Made by a program: the position numbers and the translations under genes. Of a stretch of 64,000 nucleotides of DNA, positions 14,880-23,245 are shown piece after piece (position 1 is the stretch's first letter; every line of letters starts with the position of its first letter). The stretch covers positions 1 through 64,000 of the forward strand of contig NZ_CP099997.1 of the NCBI RefSeq assembly GCF_024138145.1, given 5' to 3'. The notes beneath the pieces were generated by a model. The model had not been told where the DNA came from. It searched no databases and was given only the letters and a program-made list of their open reading frames with translations. This DNA is from Natronosalvus halobius (GTDB lineage Archaea; Halobacteriota; Halobacteria; Halobacteriales; Natrialbaceae).

Positions 14880-15221
14880 ATGACACGAACCACCGACTCC
14901 ACGACCCCAGCGAAATCGAACGACGTGAAACGGAATCAAGACCGACGAACGATGGACGACGTCAGCCACACCAATCCCTACACGGGCGAGTCGACCGGCC
15001 ACCTGTTCAGCCGCGGGCCGATCGTGGCCGCCGACGGCGGGGAGGCGAACGCGGTTCCCGATGATCGGGTGGACGAACGGGATGACCGAGTCTCGAGCGA
15101 CCCCGCAGACGGGGGCAGGGAAGACCGCATGAAAGACGTGAGTCACACGCCGCCGCGCGACGCCGACGACGCGAACGCGGTGTTCGAGCGCGGCGGGAGC
15201 GAGGTCGGAGCCGACGAATGA
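14880..15221 (+). CDS. Haloarchaeal protein between ilvC and leuC, unknown function
   Basis: A 113-aa polar protein with a Shine-Dalgarno-like GAGAGGAGAG before the ATG. The TGA overlaps the leuC ATG (ATGA), so it is part of the operon. It contains an imperfect internal duplication: [20 protein letters not shown]...ANAVPDD at about residues 26-62 and [20 protein letters not shown] at about 84-103. From the duplication and operon position I suspect a small regulatory or partner protein of the leucine enzymes; no domain is recognised. A shorter start at 14952 (MDDVSHTNP) is also credible and would remove a weak N-terminus. Confidence 0.65.
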
Positions 15222-16639
15222 GCGAGGGAACGCTCTACGACAAGGTCTGGGACCGCCACGCGGTCACCCGCCTGCCCACCGGCCAGGACCAGCTGTTCGT
15301 CGGCCTCCACCTCATTCACGAGGTGACGAGCCCGCAAGCGTTCGGGATGCTCCGTGAGCGTGACCTCGAGGTCGCCTACCCGGACCTGACCCACGCGACG
15401 GTCGATCACATCGTGCCGACATCGAGCAAGGAGCGCCCGTACGCCGACACGGCGGCCGAGGAGATGATGGCCGAACTCGAGGAGAACGTTCGCGAGTCGG
15501 GTATCGAGTTCTCTCACCCCGATACGGGCGAACAGGGGATCGTCCACGTCATCGGCCCGGAGCAGGGGCTGACCCAGCCCGGGACGACCATCGTCTGCGG
15601 CGACAGCCACACCTCGACCCACGGCGCCTTCGGCGCGCTCGCGTTCGGCATTGGTACGAGCCAGATCCGGGACGTCCTCGCCACAGGAACCGTAGCGATG
15701 GAGAAACAGAAAGTCCGCAAGATCGAGGTCACCGGCGAACTCGCCGAGGGCGTCGAAGCCAAAGACGTCATCCTGGAGATCATCCGACGACTCGGAACCG
15801 AAGGCGGCGTCGGCTACGTCTACGAATACGCCGGCGAGGCCATCGAGAACCTCGACATGGAGGGGCGAATGTCGATCTGTAACATGTCGATCGAGGGTGG
15901 CGCCCGCGCGGGCTACGTCAACCCCGACGAGACCACCTACGAGTGGCTCGAGGGTCGCAAGCGCGTCCCCGAGGGCGAGGCCTTCGAGGAGCGCAAGGCG
16001 TACTGGGAATCGATCCGATCGGACGACGACGCCGAGTACGACGACGTCGTGACGATCGACGGAAGCGAACTCGAACCGGTCGTCACCTGGGGCACGACAC
16101 CAGGACAGGGCGTCGGCGTCACCGAGCCGATTCCCGAACCCGAGGACCTCCCCGCGGACAAGGTCGAGACGGCTCGCCGCGCCCAGGAGCACATGCGGGT
16201 CGAACCGGGCGACACGATGGAGGGCTACCCCATCGACGTGGCCTTCCTGGGTTCGTGTACCAACGCGCGCCTGCCGGACCTCCGGCGGGCCGCTCGGCTC
16301 GTGAAGGGCCGGACAGTCGACCCCGACGTCCGTGCGATGGTCGTCCCCGGTAGCCAGCAGGTCAAGCAGGCTGCCGAAGAGGAGGGCCTGGACGAAATCT
16401 TCACCGATGCCGGCTTCGACTGGCGCGGTGCCGGCTGTTCGATGTGTCTCGGCATGAACGAAGACCAGCTCGAGGGCGACGAGGCCTGCGCCTCCTCCTC
16501 GAACCGGAACTTCGTCGGCCGCCAGGGGAGCAAGGACGGCCGCACAGTACTGATGAACCCCCGGATGGTCGTTGCGGCGGCGATCAACGGAGAAGTGACT
16601 GACGTGCGGGCGATCAAGGAGGTGACGGTGAATGAGTAA
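15218..16639 (+). CDS. leuC: 3-isopropylmalate dehydratase large subunit
   Basis: Aconitase-family Fe-S enzyme that isomerises 2-isopropylmalate to 3-isopropylmalate with LeuD. Signatures are [20 protein letters not shown] (about residues 125-144), the cluster cysteine in [16 protein letters not shown] (about 345), and the [12 protein letters not shown] pair (about 408-411). 473 aa, bacterial/haloarchaeal LeuC length. It overlaps the preceding small gene by 4 nt and leuD by 8 nt. Confidence 0.95.
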
Positions 16640-17264
16640 CCAGAACGAACTCGAGATTCCGAGCGTCGATTCGGTATCGGGAACGGGCGTCGCCGTTCGC
16701 GGCAACGACATCGACACCGACCAGATCATCCCGGCTCGCTTCATGAAGGTCGTCACGTTCGACGGCCTGGGCGAGTTCGCCTTCTTCGATCAGCGGTTCG
16801 ACGACGACGACAACGAGAAGGACCATCCACTGAACGAGCCACAGAACCGCGACGCCTCGGTGATGGTCGTCAACGCCAACTTCGGCTGTGGCTCCTCGCG
16901 CGAGCACGCCCCCCAGGCGCTCATGCGCTGGGGCATCGACGCCTTCATCGGCGAGAGCTTCGCCGAGATCTTCGCGGGGAACTGTCTCGCGCTCGGCATG
17001 CCCACCCTCGAGGCCGACACCGAGGTCGTCGAGGAGCTACAGGCGTGGGTCGAAGCGAATCCCGACGGCGAGATCGACGTCGACGTGGCCGACGAGACCG
17101 TCACGTACGGCGGGAAGGCGGTCGACGTACGCGTCGACGACGCCCAGCGAAAGGCCCTCGTCGAGGGCGTCTGGGATACCACGGCCCTGATGAAGGCAAA
17201 CGCCGAGGCCGTCGACGAGACCGCCGAGGCACTCTCGTACGTCGAAGACGGGAAACGAGTGTAG
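16632..17264 (+). CDS. leuD: 3-isopropylmalate dehydratase small subunit
   Basis: Swivel-domain partner of LeuC. The typical [20 protein letters not shown] (about residues 24-43) and [20 protein letters not shown] (about 77-96) motifs are present. 210 aa, normal. Last gene of this part of the operon: leuB, which I would expect next, is displaced to 22265 by an inserted block on the opposite strand. No clear terminator follows; leuD and the methyltransferase gene converge with only 31 nt between stops. Confidence 0.94.
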
Positions 17265-17295: not shown

Positions 17296-18120
17296 TCACT
17301 TCGTTCCGATACCGATGTTGACGGTGTTGTTCAACACGGCTGGACCGCTCCCGTCGGAACGCTCGCTCAGTTTGTCGTCCAGCACCGTTCGGGCCGCATC
17401 CTGCTGCTCCGCCGTCAGGTCGGCGACTAACCCCGCCCCGATCGGATTGCTGGCGGTCACCCAGTCCCACAGCTGCGCGCCGGAGTGGAACGCCAGCCGA
17501 TGATTCGTCGTCTCCACGCGAATCTTCGTGAGGCCGGCGTCGGACAGTTTCTCGTGCAACTTCTCGGGATCCGCCACCTGGAACGGTAACGGCGGCGGGT
17601 CTGACGGAAGGCCCGCGAAACCTGGGACGGCGGCTTTCACGGCACCGAGGAAGAACTGTAGGAACTCGATTTCGGCGGGCGGCCCCATCGTGACCAGGAG
17701 GACGCGGCCACCGGGTCTGGTAACGCGCGTCAGTTCGTCCAGTCCCCGTGGGAGGTCGGGAAACAGCATGACGCCGAACTGTGAGCCGGCGACGTCGAAG
17801 GTGTTCTCCTCGAGTTCGAGTGCTTGCCCGTCCATGACGCGGGCCTCCAGGGTGGTGAGCCCCTCGTCACGCGCACGTGCCTCGAGGTGCTCGACCATGG
17901 CGGGGGAGATGTCCGTCGCCAGCACCTGTGCCCCCGCGCGAGCCGTGGGGATGCTCAACGCGCCACTGCCGGCCGCGACGTCCAGCACTCGCATTCCCGG
18001 CTGGAGCCCCACCCGCTCGAGGGCCTGTTCCGCGATGGCCACGTTCGACGGAGTTACGTACTCGTCGTACTCCGGCGCGATTTTGGTCCATTCGTCCTGG
18101 ATCTCTGCTTGTTCGGGCAT
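17296..18120 (-). CDS. Class I SAM-dependent methyltransferase
   Basis: A 274-aa cytoplasmic methyltransferase of the UbiE/Methyltransf_11 type. Motif I is VLDVAAGSGALSIPTARAGA (about residues 47-66), motif II ATDISPAMVEHLEAR, and then FDVAGSQFGVMLFPDLPRGL and VTRPGGRVLLVTMGPPAE. The substrate is unknown. I start at MPEQAEIQDEW; residues further upstream read through a palindromic promoter region. A 16-bp perfect palindrome lies 46 nt before the start. It lies in the insert between leuD and leuB. Confidence 0.85.
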   Translation of the reverse strand: MPEQAEIQDEWTKIAPEYDEYVTPSNVAIAEQALERVGLQPGMRVLDVAAGSGALSIPTARAGAQVLATDISPAMVEHLEARARDEGLTTLEARVMDGQALELEENTFDVAGSQFGVMLFPDLPRGLDELTRVTRPGGRVLLVTMGPPAEIEFLQFFLGAVKAAVPGFAGLPSDPPPLPFQVADPEKLHEKLSDAGLTKIRVETTNHRLAFHSGAQLWDWVTASNPIGAGLVADLTAEQQDAARTVLDDKLSERSDGSGPAVLNNTVNIGIGTK

Positions 18121-18165
18121 GATTCCTCGAATTCCAGTGCGTTCGCTGGATACATCTACATATCC

Positions 18166-18181
18166 GGTGAAATATTTCACC
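18166..18181. promoter_or_regulatory. Perfect 16-bp palindrome, candidate operator
   Basis: GGTGAAATATTTCACC reads identically on both strands. It is centred about 53 nt upstream of the methyltransferase start, with an AT-rich core, in otherwise GC-rich DNA. Two FilR1-like HTH regulators are encoded within 3 kb, so a binding site for one of them is a natural guess. Confidence 0.6.
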
Positions 18182-18315
18182 CCGTGAAGAACCGGTTGGG
18201 TTTGCGATAGCTATGGTCAATACAGTGGATCACCGTGGTCGTCCGATTCCGTGATCTTTGGCCGTATCGGTAGTCGCCGAGCGTCTCCTACGTCTCCTCA
18301 ACTCGTGGACGCACT

Positions 18316-19140
18316 CTACCGTTGGCGGTCCGACGAGACGAGCGTCTCGAACGCTTGCGACTCGACTGGCCTCGCCTCGTCGCGGACGCGCTCGAAGGTG
18401 GAGATGGCCCACTCTCGAGCCGCCAGTGCATCCGTATCGATTATGGCCGTCAGCGCGCCAGTCTCCGCGTCGTGACAGCAGATGCCGGCGCGGTCGTCGA
18501 CGACGCCGAGCCCGCACCGGGACCGGTCAGGGAGGTCGTCGTGGACGAGAACGGTGCAGTGGTCACACGATGCGGCTTCCATCACCCGTTCGGGATTCCA
18601 GGCGAGGGTCTGCTCGAGCGCCGTCGGGGAGTACACGTACTCGAGCTCCATCCCGTCGAGGACGGCCTGGCACACCGCCTCGTTGTTGATCGACTTGAAC
18701 ACGATACTGTCGAACCCCCGCATTCGAGTGGTCCCCTCGATGAGGTGGGTGAGACGTTCGATCGGCTCGTACGGGTACCCAGGGCCGGGGTACGAGACCA
18801 CCGCATCGGTGAAGAGGTCGACGGAGAACCCCTCCATCTCCCGGGGGAGCCACTGCCAGACGTCGCGGAGCTTGTGTTCGATTTCCATCGCTTCGCGGAG
18901 CTCGAGGAACCGCTCTGCGACGAACTCGCCGAGCGACGTCAGGCAATAGGTCGGCCCATCCCGGGCGATCCATCGACGGTCTTCGAAGTCGGCGAGAATC
19001 CGACTCATCGTCGGTGTAGAGGCTCCCGTCGCGGCGGCGAGATCGCGCCGTTCGCGGGCGCCATCGGTCAGCCCCTCCAGGACACCAACTCTGTGGGTGG
19101 ATCTGGCGAGAAAGTCGATCTCTTCGAGGGCAGCATCCAT
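18316..19140 (-). CDS. FilR1-like winged-helix transcriptional regulator
   Basis: A 274-aa DNA-binding protein. The N-terminal winged HTH (EEIDFLARSTHRVGVLEGL, then RRDLAAATGASTPTMSRILA, recognition helix about residues 38-55) is followed by a dimer/sensor region that resembles the FilR1 (DUF1724) domain. That region is shared with the regulator at 20762 (IEHKLRDVWQWLPREM here; AEHRLREPLQWMPSDL there). Cys-rich spot SCDHC (about 198). ATG 19140 is chosen because TCATACA lies about 24 nt upstream on this strand. Probably controls the adjacent methyltransferase genes; ligand unknown. Confidence 0.8.
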   Translation of the reverse strand: MDAALEEIDFLARSTHRVGVLEGLTDGARERRDLAAATGASTPTMSRILADFEDRRWIARDGPTYCLTSLGEFVAERFLELREAMEIEHKLRDVWQWLPREMEGFSVDLFTDAVVSYPGPGYPYEPIERLTHLIEGTTRMRGFDSIVFKSINNEAVCQAVLDGMELEYVYSPTALEQTLAWNPERVMEAASCDHCTVLVHDDLPDRSRCGLGVVDDRAGICCHDAETGALTAIIDTDALAAREWAISTFERVRDEARPVESQAFETLVSSDRQR

Positions 19141-19336
19141 GGTATGTTTACACATGGCATTGTATGATGCGTATCGGTGCTCGTCTCCTTCGAGACGGAA
19201 TGTGTTCCGTCTACTCAGCATCGTCTGAGTGTGCTACTCGATACTCGAGTTCGGTTATGCCCCAATTCTCGAGCGATTCGGGACAAACAGCATTTCATTT
19301 CGCCTGCACCGGCCCCTATCGCTCGCTCGTTTCGCC

Positions 19337-20395
19337 TTACGGCTTGGCTTCGAACACGAGATTCAGGGGCGTCTCGGCCGCCCGGCGGAACCGGGTGAAG
19401 CCGCCGTCGGCGACGGCTTCCTGAATACCAGTCTCGCCAGCCTGAGCGCCTAGCACGCGCTCGGCCTCCTGATCGAGTGCACACGGCGTACAGATCAGCG
19501 TCGAGATCGAGTAGGCTGCCCGTCCCATCGGGTTGAGGTTGTCCGCCACGCGGTCGTTGGCGAACAGCTCGACGATCATCCACGTGCCGTCGTCGGCGAG
19601 CGTTTCCCGGACGTGCGCGGCCGCCCCCACCGGATCTCCCATGTCGTGGAAGGCGTCGAACGTGGCCACGAAGTCGTAACTCGCGCCGTCGTACGACTTG
19701 GCCGTCGCCACCTCGAAGCTCACACGGTCGGCGACACCGGCTTCGGCTGCTCGCTCCCGGGCCGCCGCTATCGAGGGTTCGTGCGGGTCGATGCCGACGA
19801 ACGTCGACTCCGGGTACGCCTCCGCCATCAGGATGGTCGAGGCGCCGTGGCCACAGCCCACGTCGGCGATGCGCCCACCGTCCTGGAGCGTCGTGTCCAC
19901 CCCCTCGAGCGCGGGAATCCAGTTGTCGACCAGGTTCGCCGCGTACTGTGGTCGCCAGGAGTACTCGATTGCGTGGAACAGGTCCGCGTCGTGTTCGTGC
20001 CAGCCTACGCCCTCGCCCGTGCGGAACGCCTCGACGAGTTGTGATTCGATCCTGGCCGCCGACAGAGCGACCTGGAAGTTACCGACCATGAACGCCGGGC
20101 TGGTTTCGTCGGCGAGCACCGCGGCCTGCTCGGGGGTGAGGGTGTAGCGATCCGTCTCCGAATCGTAGGTGACGTACCCTCCAGCGGCCTGCGAGGGGAG
20201 CCACTCGCGGACGTACCGTTCCGCGGTATCCGTTTTCTCGGCCAGTTCGGCTGACGTAAGTGGGCCCGCTTCGGCGAGCGTATCGTACAGGCCGAGTTTG
20301 TCGCCGATGACGACGAGCGGCGCATGTGCTGTCGCTCCGAAGTCGGTTATCGCTGTCTGTACGTGCTGGTTCAGTCGTTCTTCGTCGAGTGTCAT
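19337..20395 (-). CDS. SAM-dependent methyltransferase with N-terminal winged helix
   Basis: A 352-aa enzyme. Residues about 15-95 form a winged-helix dimerisation domain (PLVVIGDKLGLYDTLAEAGP, then SAELAEKTDTAERYVREWL), as in Rv2258c-like and O-methyltransferase families. The C-terminal Rossmann domain has motif I ADVGCGHGASTILMAEAYPE (about 176-195), followed by FVGIDPHEPSI and VATFDAFHDMGDP. It is probably a small-molecule methyltransferase; substrate unknown. There is no good TATA box at leaderless distance. The start overlaps (ATGA) the end of a possible 60-aa ORF upstream. Confidence 0.85.
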   Translation of the reverse strand: MTLDEERLNQHVQTAITDFGATAHAPLVVIGDKLGLYDTLAEAGPLTSAELAEKTDTAERYVREWLPSQAAGGYVTYDSETDRYTLTPEQAAVLADETSPAFMVGNFQVALSAARIESQLVEAFRTGEGVGWHEHDADLFHAIEYSWRPQYAANLVDNWIPALEGVDTTLQDGGRIADVGCGHGASTILMAEAYPESTFVGIDPHEPSIAAARERAAEAGVADRVSFEVATAKSYDGASYDFVATFDAFHDMGDPVGAAAHVRETLADDGTWMIVELFANDRVADNLNPMGRAAYSISTLICTPCALDQEAERVLGAQAGETGIQEAVADGGFTRFRRAAETPLNLVFEAKP

Positions 20396-20574
20396 GATTG
20401 GTCGTCGTAGGTGTTGTCGGCTGGATTGTCGATTGCGTTCGACCGCCCGGTTCTCACGTTTCTCACTCGATGCGGCCCGAGGACCGCCTTCGTGTGGGGT
20501 GCATTCTCATCCGTCGATTCGCACCAGCATGACGTTCCGGGGGTTACGTCGATCACGGTGTCTTCGATGATCAC
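20392..20574 (-). CDS. Possible 60-aa protein coupled to the methyltransferase
   Basis: GTG-started ORF beginning MIIEDTVIDVTPGTSCWCES, whose TGA overlaps the ATG of the downstream methyltransferase by 4 nt. The wobble positions are only moderately GC-rich, and no domain is recognised. The exact overlap, and the lack of a separate promoter for the methyltransferase, are the reasons to list it. Chance is a real alternative. Confidence 0.3.
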   Translation of the reverse strand: MIIEDTVIDVTPGTSCWCESTDENAPHTKAVLGPHRVRNVRTGRSNAIDNPADNTYDDQS

Positions 20575-20579
20575 GGTGT
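20551..20579. repeat. Direct repeat GATCACGGTGT, 18-bp period
   Basis: GATCACGGTGT occurs at 20551-20561 and 20569-20579 in the divergent region between the methyltransferase and the second FilR1-like regulator. The roughly two-helical-turn spacing suits a dimeric regulator binding one face. Confidence 0.5.
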
Positions 20580-20731
20580 GGACGACGAACGGATGGTGAG
20601 ATGACGGCCTCGTCGGCCGTGAATCAAATCGACTTGATCAGACGATCTCGAAGCACTTGGCCAACGATCGGAAGCCCAAGATATGGCTATCCCACCACTA
20701 CCACCACCCCACCACCATCTCGCCCCATAGG

Positions 20732-20737
20732 TTAATA
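20732..20737 (+). promoter_or_regulatory. TATA box of the second regulator
   Basis: TTAATA lies about 27 nt before the ATG at 20762, supporting that start and a leaderless transcript. A CCA-rich tract lies just upstream. Confidence 0.6.
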
Positions 20738-20761
20738 CCACGATTCGAGTTACCAATAGAC

Positions 20762-21610
20762 ATGGCCACTGCACTCGAGGACGTTGCGTTTCTCGCGAAC
20801 TCGGAGAACCGCGTGGCAGTCTTACGGCTCCTCGTCGAGGCTCCGCACAGTCACGACGAGATACGTGATCGGATCGGTGCATCGCGGGTGACGACCGCGC
20901 GCATTCTTCGGGAGCTCGAAGAGCGCAACTGGATCGCACGCTCGGGCCAGGAGTCCACGGCGACACCGACTGGTGAATGGGTGTGTGACGAATTCACGCG
21001 CCTGGTGGGCGAGATGGAGGCCGAACATCGGCTGCGTGAACCCCTGCAGTGGATGCCGTCCGACCTTCTGACGTTCGACGTCCAGCGCCTTCGCGATGCC
21101 GAACTCATCGTTCTCGAGGAGAGTGACGCGACCGCCATCATTCGACGGATACTCGAATTTCGCCGCTCTGGCGACCGGATTCGGGGCGTTACACGCACGG
21201 TCGCCCCGGAGTTCATCGAAAACGACTGGGAGTCGACCGTCCACGGGGACACCCACCTCGAAATGGTAATCACGCCGGACGTCCTCGACGCCATCCGAAC
21301 TCATCCGACCTCCGCAAAGCAGTTGCGTGAGATGCTCGATGAGACAGATGTCCACGTGTCTGTCTTCGAAGACATCCCGATTTCAGTCGGTATCGTCGAC
21401 GGCGCGGTGGGAATCGACCTCACTGACGAACAGGGAGTCGTCAAAGGAGGGTTCGTCACTGAGGACGAGGCCGTCTACGAGTGGGCAGTCGACCTCTTCG
21501 AATCGTGCCGTGACGAAGCGAGCCCAGTGGATCCTGACGAGGCCACGGCTGACCACTCAGTTGGCGTGAATCTTGCTCGGCCTCGGGAGCGAGACGGGCC
21601 CGTGTCGTAG
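20762..21610 (+). CDS. FilR1-like winged-helix transcriptional regulator
   Basis: A 282-aa paralogue-like relative of the regulator at 18316-19140. The N-terminal HTH (LEDVAFLANSENRVAVLRLL, then DEIRDRIGASRVTTARILRE, about residues 28-47) is followed by a wing (ERNWIARSGQ) and a FilR1-type C-terminal domain ending in FVTEDEAVYEWAVDLFESCR. That end parallels ALAAREWAISTFERVRDEAR in the other protein. The ATG has a TATA box 27 nt upstream. Divergent from the winged-helix methyltransferase, so it likely regulates it or itself. Confidence 0.82.
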   Translation: MATALEDVAFLANSENRVAVLRLLVEAPHSHDEIRDRIGASRVTTARILRELEERNWIARSGQESTATPTGEWVCDEFTRLVGEMEAEHRLREPLQWMPSDLLTFDVQRLRDAELIVLEESDATAIIRRILEFRRSGDRIRGVTRTVAPEFIENDWESTVHGDTHLEMVITPDVLDAIRTHPTSAKQLREMLDETDVHVSVFEDIPISVGIVDGAVGIDLTDEQGVVKGGFVTEDEAVYEWAVDLFESCRDEASPVDPDEATADHSVGVNLARPRERDGPVS

Positions 21611-21929
21611 TCCGTATCGCCGGGGTCGACCTCGGGTCTTACCGTCTTGTCGTGGGGACCCATCGAACCACTCGACGTGTGTCGAACCGCTCGAGTCCCT
21701 TCGAGAAAGTTCGATCCAGCGCTGCCGCAGATCGTCCCAGCCTGCTACCAGTAGACTCGGCGAATCCGTGACGACTTCGCTGCTCCGACGGCGCCGAACT
21801 CGTTGAGAGCGAACGCTCGAAGCGATTCAGTCGTCACGTTTCCGTTTTCTGGACAACGGGTGCCTCAAGGTAACCGCGGTACCAGGTTACTGGGGGTTCG
21901 ACGGTACCACGAGGTCCTGTTCAGCTCCG
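21611..21929. other. Intergenic region with a hairpin
   Basis: No gene seen. It contains GTAACC...GGTTAC (21870-21890, 6-bp arms with a KpnI-like GGTACC inside the loop), lying downstream of the small membrane protein stop on the minus strand. It might help end that transcript. Confidence 0.4.
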
Positions 21930-22109
21930 TCACAGGGTTCGTGCGTGGAGCAAGAACCCGAGGGTAAACAGCACCGGAACGACGGCGAGCCATCCGAAGA
22001 GGTACAGGAAGAGTACGTTCAGAAGCACCAGTCCGCTGTAAGAAAATTCTCGCTTCCCGAGTGTATTCAGTGTACTGTACGCGATCTGGTTCCGTCCAAG
22101 CACCACCAT
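21930..22109 (-). CDS. Small membrane protein, 59 aa
   Basis: A short ORF that could be missed by length filters: it starts MVVLGRNQIAYSTLNTLGKR and continues into an almost wholly hydrophobic 28-residue stretch (SGLVLLNVLFLYLFGWLAVV, then PVLFTLGFLL) and the end HARTL. That is long enough for one membrane span plus a turn, or two short helices. TTATCATA on the minus strand (22132-22139) lies about 26 nt before the ATG, the leaderless spacing. Function unknown. The wobble positions are less GC-rich than in neighbours, which hints at transfer with the insert. Confidence 0.55.
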   Translation of the reverse strand: MVVLGRNQIAYSTLNTLGKREFSYSGLVLLNVLFLYLFGWLAVVPVLFTLGFLLHARTL

Positions 22110-22214
22110 GAAGCAGACACTCGAATGCGAGTATGATAACCTTTCTGGCTATTCGGATTCTCGAGACTGTACGATATATTGATATACGACCGCTCGTCGA
22201 CGACCAGGACTGGC

Positions 22215-22221
22215 AAATATA
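22215..22221 (+). promoter_or_regulatory. TATA box of leuB
   Basis: AAATATA about 47 nt before the leuB ATG, giving a predicted 5' leader near 20 nt. leuB therefore seems to have its own promoter after separation from the leu operon. Confidence 0.5.
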
Positions 22222-22264
22222 CCGCTTTCGATACCCTCTTTGGGCTTCCACGACGAGCGCGAGC

Positions 22265-23245
22265 ATGACCCACGACATCGCCGTCGTTCCAGGAGACGGC
22301 ATCGGCCAGGAAGTGACGCCGGCCGCGCTCGAGGTACTCGAAGCGATAGACGTCGACTTTTCGTTTCGCGAGGCGGCGGCGGGCGACGCCGTGAAGGCGG
22401 AGACTGGCGAGGCGCTTCCGCAGGAGACCTACGATCTCGTCGCCTCGAGTGACGTGACGCTCTTCGGCGCGGCGGGCGAGACCGCTGCGGACGTGATTCT
22501 TCCACTGCGCGAGGCCGTCGACTCGTTCGTCAACGTTCGGCCCGCCAGGGCGTACCCTGGCGTCGACGCGGTTCGGCCCGAGACGGACCTCGTCTTTCTC
22601 CGGGAGAACACCGAGGGGGTCTACGCGGGCCACGAAACCCGGCTGAGCGACGACCTCTCGACGCTGACGCGCGTAGTGACCGACTCGGGCTCGCGACGGC
22701 TCGCCGAGTACGCCTGCGAGTTCGTCGACGACCGTGGCCTCGACGAGTTTGCAGTCGTTCACAAGGCCAACGTGATGCGCGAGACGGACGGCCGGTTTCG
22801 CGACGCGGTCGTCGGCGTGGCCGACGCGGAGGGCGTGGAGACACAGGAGGTGCTGATGGACGCCTTCGCCACTCACGTCTGTCTCGACCCGGCGCAGTTC
22901 GACGTCGTGGTCTGTCCCAACCTCGCGGGCGACGTGCTCTCGGACCTCGCGGCGGGCCTCGTCGGCGGTCTCGGCTTACTCCCGAGCGCGAACGTCGGAC
23001 CCGACCGAGCGCTCTTCGAACCGGTCCACGGCACCGCTCCCGACATCGCCGGCCAGGGCGTCGCCAACCCCGCCGCCGCCATCCTCTCGGCGGCGATGCT
23101 GCTCGAGTACCTCGGCCACGAAGACGAGGGCGCGGCCGTCCAGGAGGCCGTCGAAGGCGTGCTCGATGACGGCCCGCGGACGGGTGACCTCGGTGGCGAC
23201 GCCTCGACGGACGAGGTGACGGCGGCAGTTATCGATCGACTGTAG
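22265..23245 (+). CDS. leuB: 3-isopropylmalate dehydrogenase
   Basis: Oxidises and decarboxylates 3-isopropylmalate with NAD, completing the leucine-specific pathway. [20 protein letters not shown] opens the protein. The substrate/metal region [14 protein letters not shown] (about residues 112-125) and [20 protein letters not shown] (about 238-257) are family signatures. 326 aa, archaeal length. It is isolated from leuCD by about 5 kb of inserted genes. The ATG at 22265 is favoured since [14 protein letters not shown] is the usual start. Confidence 0.93.

Follow-up and report, generated by a model that had tools for sequence, protein, structure and literature searches.

Introduction

FilR1 of Methanosaeta harundinacea is the response regulator of a two-component system and carries a receiver (REC) domain at its C-terminus (PMC5847659). 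OxsR of Haloferax volcanii is a thiol-based winged-helix regulator; its palindromic motif lies 5' of the B recognition element (BRE) and TATA box (PMC9426492). TnmJ, from enediyne biosynthesis, is listed as a cofactor-independent oxygenase (PMC11181247). Each has partial counterparts in a gene block of the haloarchaeon Natronosalvus halobius. The block occupies positions 17,296 to 22,109 of the 64,000-nucleotide stretch analyzed here (the window) and lies between leuD and leuB. It contains two methyltransferase genes (MT1 and MT2), two regulator genes (reg1 and reg2) and a 59-aa open reading frame (ORF). What makes it of interest is not the split leucine operon but the regulator subfamily to which reg1 belongs, together with an operator upstream of MT1 and an apparent recognition code.

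The reg1 protein is a member of a Cys-rich branch of the HVO_A0261_N/FilR1_middle regulators without a receiver domain, a family that seems to be undescribed. In the open-access literature, we found no paper on HVO_A0261, encountered FilR1/DUF1724 only in papers on two-component systems, and found almost nothing on the function of FilR1_middle outside those of methanogens. Nor did we find there any description of a reg1-type subfamily with an operator and an apparent recognition code.

Results

A shared operator precedes the genes next to reg1-type regulators

Comparison of the intergenic gaps that follow reg1-type regulators yielded the operator TTTCAC-N3-GTGAAA-TATTTCAC. Its consensus, TTKCAC-N3-GTGMAA-TATTTCAC, is located just upstream of a TATA-like box before the adjacent enzyme gene. 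The TATA-like sequence follows at about 10 nt and the start codon usually at about 35–50 nt. The position of the box is conserved at about 30 operator loci, and at most sites the spacing to both box and start codon is fixed. Best scores in the operator scan reached 29 of 30 positions, compared with a maximum of 20 in 6000 shuffles. Roughly one third of the loci scored at or below the shuffle maximum in the ungapped scan, some of them due to a one-base spacing difference.

The window contains one exact operator, upstream of MT1, where none was expected by chance. There is a single operator per locus and none upstream of reg1 itself. When the whole genome was searched with up to three mismatches, one further site was found in addition to that of MT1, and the reversed control gave none. 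This second operator (L405, G000:C1:3474321-3474342) is also exact, has no FilR1-type regulator next to it and is situated 45 nt upstream of a gene for a 248-aa membrane protein. We predict that reg1 acts on this gene in trans.

At up to two mismatches, the 125 genomes of our family comparison contain 55 operators, distributed over 40 genomes; the reversed pattern was not found in any of them. A reg1-type gene adjoins 29 of the 32 operators that were inspected. The operator-linked target genes (n = 25) include 13 methyltransferases, 9 alpha/beta-hydrolases and 2 FAD oxidases. The genes that come after 28 reg1-type regulators included flavin monooxygenase-like genes (9), hydrolases (7), BBE-type genes (5) and MT2-like genes (2).

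The first-pass annotation had noted that each methyltransferase is next to a FilR1-like regulator. This pairing is real and recurs in other genomes. A general rule that FilR1-type regulators adjoin methyltransferases did not emerge from sampled family members with the highest scores. Their neighbors (L224–L263) were enriched in BBE/FAD_binding_4 flavoproteins (11 of 78 genes); for 80 control genes, the 25 top families listed include neither of the two. Association with methyltransferases is a trait of the reg1 and MT2 branches.

Operator arms covary with the recognition helix

The operator arms occur in two variants, TTTCAC/GTGAAA and TTGCAC/GTGCAA. The varying position is T/A at 39 of the 55 sites, G/C at 15 and mixed at one, and the two arms are matched in all but that one (54/55). 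Regulators beside the T/A variant (n = 19) have Ser68, with Pro70 in 18 of the 19; those beside the G/C variant (n = 9) have His68 and Ser70. Both residues are at the start of the recognition helix. Conservative Leu/Ile differences aside, they are the only positions in the winged-helix core that separate the two classes. This covariation, which is not corrected for phylogeny, argues strongly that reg1-type proteins bind the operator.

reg1 is a one-component regulator with conserved cysteines

Both reg1 and reg2 match PF25213 and PF08350 well above the cut-off. The two had been described as similar regulators. They do share their domains, but close similarity did not hold, with identity only about 32%. 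A receiver domain was absent among the Pfam matches of either protein, and both end just past the middle domain. We therefore classify reg1 as a one-component FilR1_middle regulator and not as FilR1. Regulators with FilR1_middle were present in every searched genome of the family, at 1–18 copies per genome.

An alignment-based AlphaFold2 model of reg1 (pLDDT 92.8), which replaced a single-sequence model (pLDDT 38.5), has a winged helix and a PLD/NucT-like C-terminal domain. TrmBL2/TrmB and PLD-fold structures matched it with Z-scores of 12.9–14.8; TrmBL2 gave the best Foldseek matches (E 4.6e-11), and the sugar-binding domain of TrmB aligned over 129 residues (Z 12.9, rmsd 2.7). The TrmB Pfam family had no match in reg1 at E 1e-3. 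For the DNA-binding part, the best-scoring match was YodB (Z 13.6, 88 residues), with many winged helices nearly equal.

Cys184, Cys236 and Cys248 are kept in 36–37 of 38 close reg1 homologues and are rare in distant ones. Cys249, Cys222 and Cys219 are often kept in close homologues and not in distant relatives. This conservation suggests that reg1 senses a thiol, metal or electrophile via its cysteines.

reg1 and MT1 belong to a mobile cassette

By Pfam, MT1 has a Rossmann methyltransferase domain (UbiE/Methyltransf_11); its S-adenosylmethionine (SAM) motif, read from the sequence, is DVAAGSG. An arsenite methyltransferase was ruled out, as there is no cysteine in the MT1 sequence. Homologues are rare, being present in 9 of the 125 family genomes and in 14 of 392 genomes of the order, where the cut-off was stricter. 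The closest ones (about 74% identity and up) invariably lie behind a reg1 homologue, and in most cases the hydrolase gene or a remnant of it comes next; several at about 60% identity are without this arrangement. Five close copies are on named plasmids, and plasmid-borne reg1-MT1 pairs were found in Haloterrigena turkmenica, Natronorubrum aibiense, Natrinema, Halorussus halophilus and Salinigranum rubrum. The annotated order in the H. turkmenica copy is regulator, methyltransferase, alpha/beta-hydrolase, second methyltransferase. In the MT1 tree, the window clade groups with the cassette copies and haloarchaeal families are intermixed, which points to horizontal transfer. The reg1-MT1-hydrolase unit, which occurs in other genera too, is a mobile cassette that is frequently plasmid-borne.

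A more distant MT1 homologue (49% identity) is located on the conjugative plasmid pA of Sinorhizobium meliloti (L402:5001-5813), where no gene is annotated.

The block is an insertion at a tolerant junction

The same block is in the same place in two of seven congeners (G002 and G004), with per-gene identities of 87–98%, which shows that it is no chance arrangement. Both have an extra alpha/beta-hydrolase gene between leuD and MT1. This gene is frameshifted in G004 and is gone from the window, where the gap between leuD and MT1 is only 31 bp. In congener G007 leuD and leuB are separated by 85 bp, and they are also adjacent in genera g18, g19 and g23. In congeners G001 and G003, leuB is elsewhere than beside leuD. 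Junction comparison thus agrees with the earlier proposal of an insertion: the block is a lineage insertion that probably dates to the common ancestor of N. halobius and two congeners.

In 112 of the family genomes, leuD and leuB are on one contig and strand. The gap between them is at most 200 bp in 18 genomes, 0.2–1 kb in 8, 1–15 kb in 84 and 17 kb in one; in one more, G001, the two are far apart, and its negative gap is counted there and not in the shortest class. An uninterrupted leuCDB cluster, which had been assumed as the norm, is therefore not typical of this family. The cargo is mostly non-homologous between genera and includes an EamA transporter, a subtilase, an HTTM protein, a BAAT thioesterase, a VWA protein, a GH3 glycosidase, an ArsP permease, an amino-acid permease, a lanthipeptide-synthetase-like protein and others. 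No MT1 or MT2 homologue was found at the junction outside the three-species clade. The leuD-leuB junction is a tolerant, repeatedly used insertion place. Since most family genomes are interrupted there by at least 1 kb, usually by unrelated genes, the split leucine operon is unremarkable and represents ordinary cargo turnover.

Two other inserts at this junction carry unusual genes. In G009 the interval (L076:3301-6912) encodes a 1203-aa protein that combines HVO_A0261_N and FilR1_middle with a STAND NTPase and TPR repeats. In G077 a DUF4135 (lanthipeptide-synthetase-like) gene is part of the 17-kb insert (L129:7906-9912).

Base composition and flanking repeats, which had been put forward as a check on the insertion, were uninformative. 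GC content is slightly lower in the block (about 58–67%, against 65–70% for most leu genes), and the composition and repeat scans gave no convincing integration signature and no notable flanking repeat. There is no integrase gene in the block and no tRNA target nearby. PADLOC returned no specific defense match for the block: the overlap with mad2 was of a generic methyltransferase kind, and those involving winged helices were weak.

MT2 and reg2 form a second module

MT2 has HTH_65 (Rv2258c-like) and methyltransferase domains by Pfam, and its closest relatives in the Protein Data Bank (PDB) are TnmJ (9e-54) and Rv2258c (1.4e-43). MT2 does not fit a TnmJ-type cofactor-free oxygenase: the SAM motif of TnmJ is degenerate (AHVGSGGG), whereas that of MT2 is canonical (ADVGCGHG). 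With the motif intact, methylation of a substrate is the better guess for MT2.

Homologues of MT2 are commoner than those of MT1 (28 of the 125 genomes) and are mostly at other places. Outside the clade, 15 of 31 lie next to a FilR1-type regulator in divergent orientation, and others have a DUF7347/DUF7351 regulator as neighbor. G002 and G004 each contain one more MT2-family gene, away from the block (L185 and L174, respectively), that is not in the N. halobius genome; the one in G002 is divergent from a DUF7347/DUF7351 regulator. Between MT2 and reg2, tandem TCACGGTGT repeats (20553-20579) are largely conserved in the three species and are a weak candidate for a reg2 site.

The block had been called a self-contained module. 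This holds only in part: it consists of two sub-modules that are mostly found apart, though they occur together in Haladaptatus salinisoli, of another haloarchaeal family. There, reg-MT1-reg-MT2 are consecutive genes of an insert that is flanked by a helicase gene and metabolic genes, so the two pairs do sometimes travel together.

Layout of the block

The genes and coordinates given for the block in the first-pass annotation were correct (Table 1). Since the alternative GTG at 18180 falls within the operator, the most likely start of MT1 is ATG 18126. The 59-aa ORF had no match in a Pfam search and is confined to the three genomes that carry the block. As had been proposed, leuB has its own promoter: TATA-like sequences at about 22173-22186 and 22214-22223, upstream of its ATG start, are conserved in the three species. 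Further upstream in the window, the position of a 113-aa ORF between ilvC and leuC (14880-15221) is kept in all inspected relatives that retain this stretch.

Table 1. Features of the leuD-leuB interval in window coordinates.
Feature	Position	Strand	Remark
leuD	16632..17264	+	Upstream border of insert
MT1, class I SAM methyltransferase (UbiE/Methyltransf_11-like)	17296..18126	-	Pfam; ATG start 18126
TATA-like box of MT1, ATATGTAG	18156..18163	-	About 34 nt before ATG; directly after operator
Operator TTCACGGGGTGAAATATTTCAC, inverted repeat and third half-site, upstream of MT1	18167..18188	-	
reg1, HVO_A0261_N winged helix and FilR1_middle, Cys-rich subfamily	18316..19167	-	Longer ORF reading: start 19221
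MT2, Rv2258c/TnmJ-like winged helix and SAM methyltransferase	19337..20395	-	Motif ADVGCGHG intact
Tandem TCACGGTGT repeats, MT2/reg2 divergent region	20553-20561 and 20571-20579	.	Candidate reg2 site (weak)
reg2, second HVO_A0261_N/FilR1_middle regulator	20756..21610	+	Without the reg1 Cys set
Putative membrane protein, 59 aa	21930..22109	-	
TATA-like sequence upstream of leuB	22173..22186	+	Conserved
leuB (3-isopropylmalate dehydrogenase)	22265..23245	+	ATG start; downstream border, own promoter

Discussion

We think it reasonably likely that the block is accessory cargo at a tolerant junction, consisting of two joined regulator-enzyme modules, and that reg1 switches MT1 through the operator in the service of small-molecule chemistry. 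The block would have entered the junction in the ancestor shared with the two congeners. In this account reg1 would be a one-component winged-helix regulator whose TrmB/PLD-like effector domain is rich in conserved cysteines. It would bind the operator beside the BRE/TATA region and thereby turn MT1 on or off, the signal being a small molecule or thiol/redox chemistry. In relatives this cassette goes on to the alpha/beta-hydrolase. In the second module, MT2 is probably controlled by the divergent reg2 through their shared intergenic region. Because the block encodes methyltransferases with SAM motifs and the other reg1-type targets are flavin monooxygenases, BBE oxidases and hydrolases, the common theme is probably the modification of small, probably aromatic, molecules. 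The cassettes would then be inducible units for such modification. The substrate of MT1 and MT2 is most likely a small metabolite or xenobiotic, probably aromatic or quinone-like.

Several observations count against this account. The covariation may in part be due to a single clade, since hydrolases are the targets of all G/C variants and those nine sites are therefore not independent events. Neither the genomic operator at C1:3474321 nor the family site L422 has a reg1-type gene beside it. reg2 and MT2 are without the reg1 operator, and control of the pair is argued from divergence and a weak repeat. Finally, the FilR1-type neighbors of MT2 relatives elsewhere are not orthologous to reg2.

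A broader proposal, which we put forward tentatively and with some doubt, is that this is a haloarchaeal plug-in cassette in which a Cys-rich TrmB-fold regulator and a fixed operator-TATA promoter are retained while methyltransferase, alpha/beta-hydrolase, flavin monooxygenase and BBE oxidase genes are interchanged behind them by horizontal transfer. It would serve as an inducible defense against electrophilic or aromatic compounds, and the operator base and helix residue would have changed together with the target class.

The block might instead be part of a biosynthetic cluster for a methylated secondary metabolite or signal, with regulators that sense intermediates, and not a detoxification or xenobiotic module. 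The enediyne origin of MT2's closest PDB match fits this idea, as do the genes for SnoaL-like proteins, BBE flavoproteins and a second methyltransferase that neighbor relatives. We consider it unlikely, however, since neither the block nor the inspected relatives contain a core biosynthetic enzyme and each cassette has only one to four enzymes, and since the intact SAM motif of MT2 means that cofactor-free chemistry should not be assumed.

More doubtful still is that the operator acts as a strong promoter element or serves some other regulator widespread in haloarchaea, and that its proximity to reg1-type genes merely reflects co-inherited promoters of mobile cassettes. Its constant position beside a TATA-like box would be expected of a promoter element, and the few sites without a reg1-type neighbor, the single copy per locus and the lack of a copy upstream of reg1 are in keeping with this. 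Yet the operator precedes unrelated genes (methyltransferase, hydrolase, flavin monooxygenase, BBE) whose common neighbor is a reg1-type gene, it is absent from 85 of the 125 genomes, and its arms covary with each other and with the recognition-helix residues. It is very improbable that the family ancestor already had the block and other lineages lost it, with leuD and leuB never contiguous here: most family genomes do have something between the two genes, but it is rarely homologous between genera, MT1/MT2 homologues at the junction are limited to the three-species clade, and leuD and leuB nearly abut in one congener and several other genera.

The operator provides one FilR1_middle subfamily with a predicted site and target and with a recognition code that is open to test (Ser68/Pro70 for T/A, His68/Ser70 for G/C). 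It could also be used for genome-wide regulon mapping and could supply inducible promoters for haloarchaeal genetics.

Among described systems, FilR1 of M. harundinacea (PF08350) has the winged helix and FilR1_middle in common with reg1 and reg2. TrmB and TrmBL2 have a winged helix followed by a PLD/NucT-like effector domain, as in the reg1 model, but identity is only about 10–13%, reg1 has no TrmB Pfam match, and reg1 has conserved cysteines. The partners differ as well, being sugar genes for TrmB and methyltransferases, hydrolases and flavoenzymes for reg1-type regulators. OxsR resembles reg1 as a haloarchaeal winged-helix protein with a palindrome before the BRE/TATA region. However, it belongs to the TrmB family (PF01978), consists of a single winged helix, and has a single sensing Cys and a motif of CG repeats; reg1 differs in its additional domain, its up to six conserved Cys and its operator. 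The HxlR/MarR-type quinone/electrophile sensors YodB and QsrR are Cys-bearing winged-helix repressors that are single-domain and bacterial; we liken them to reg1 by fold and cysteines and not by quinone sensing. For MT2, TnmJ and Rv2258c share its whole architecture of HTH_65 and a Rossmann methyltransferase domain.

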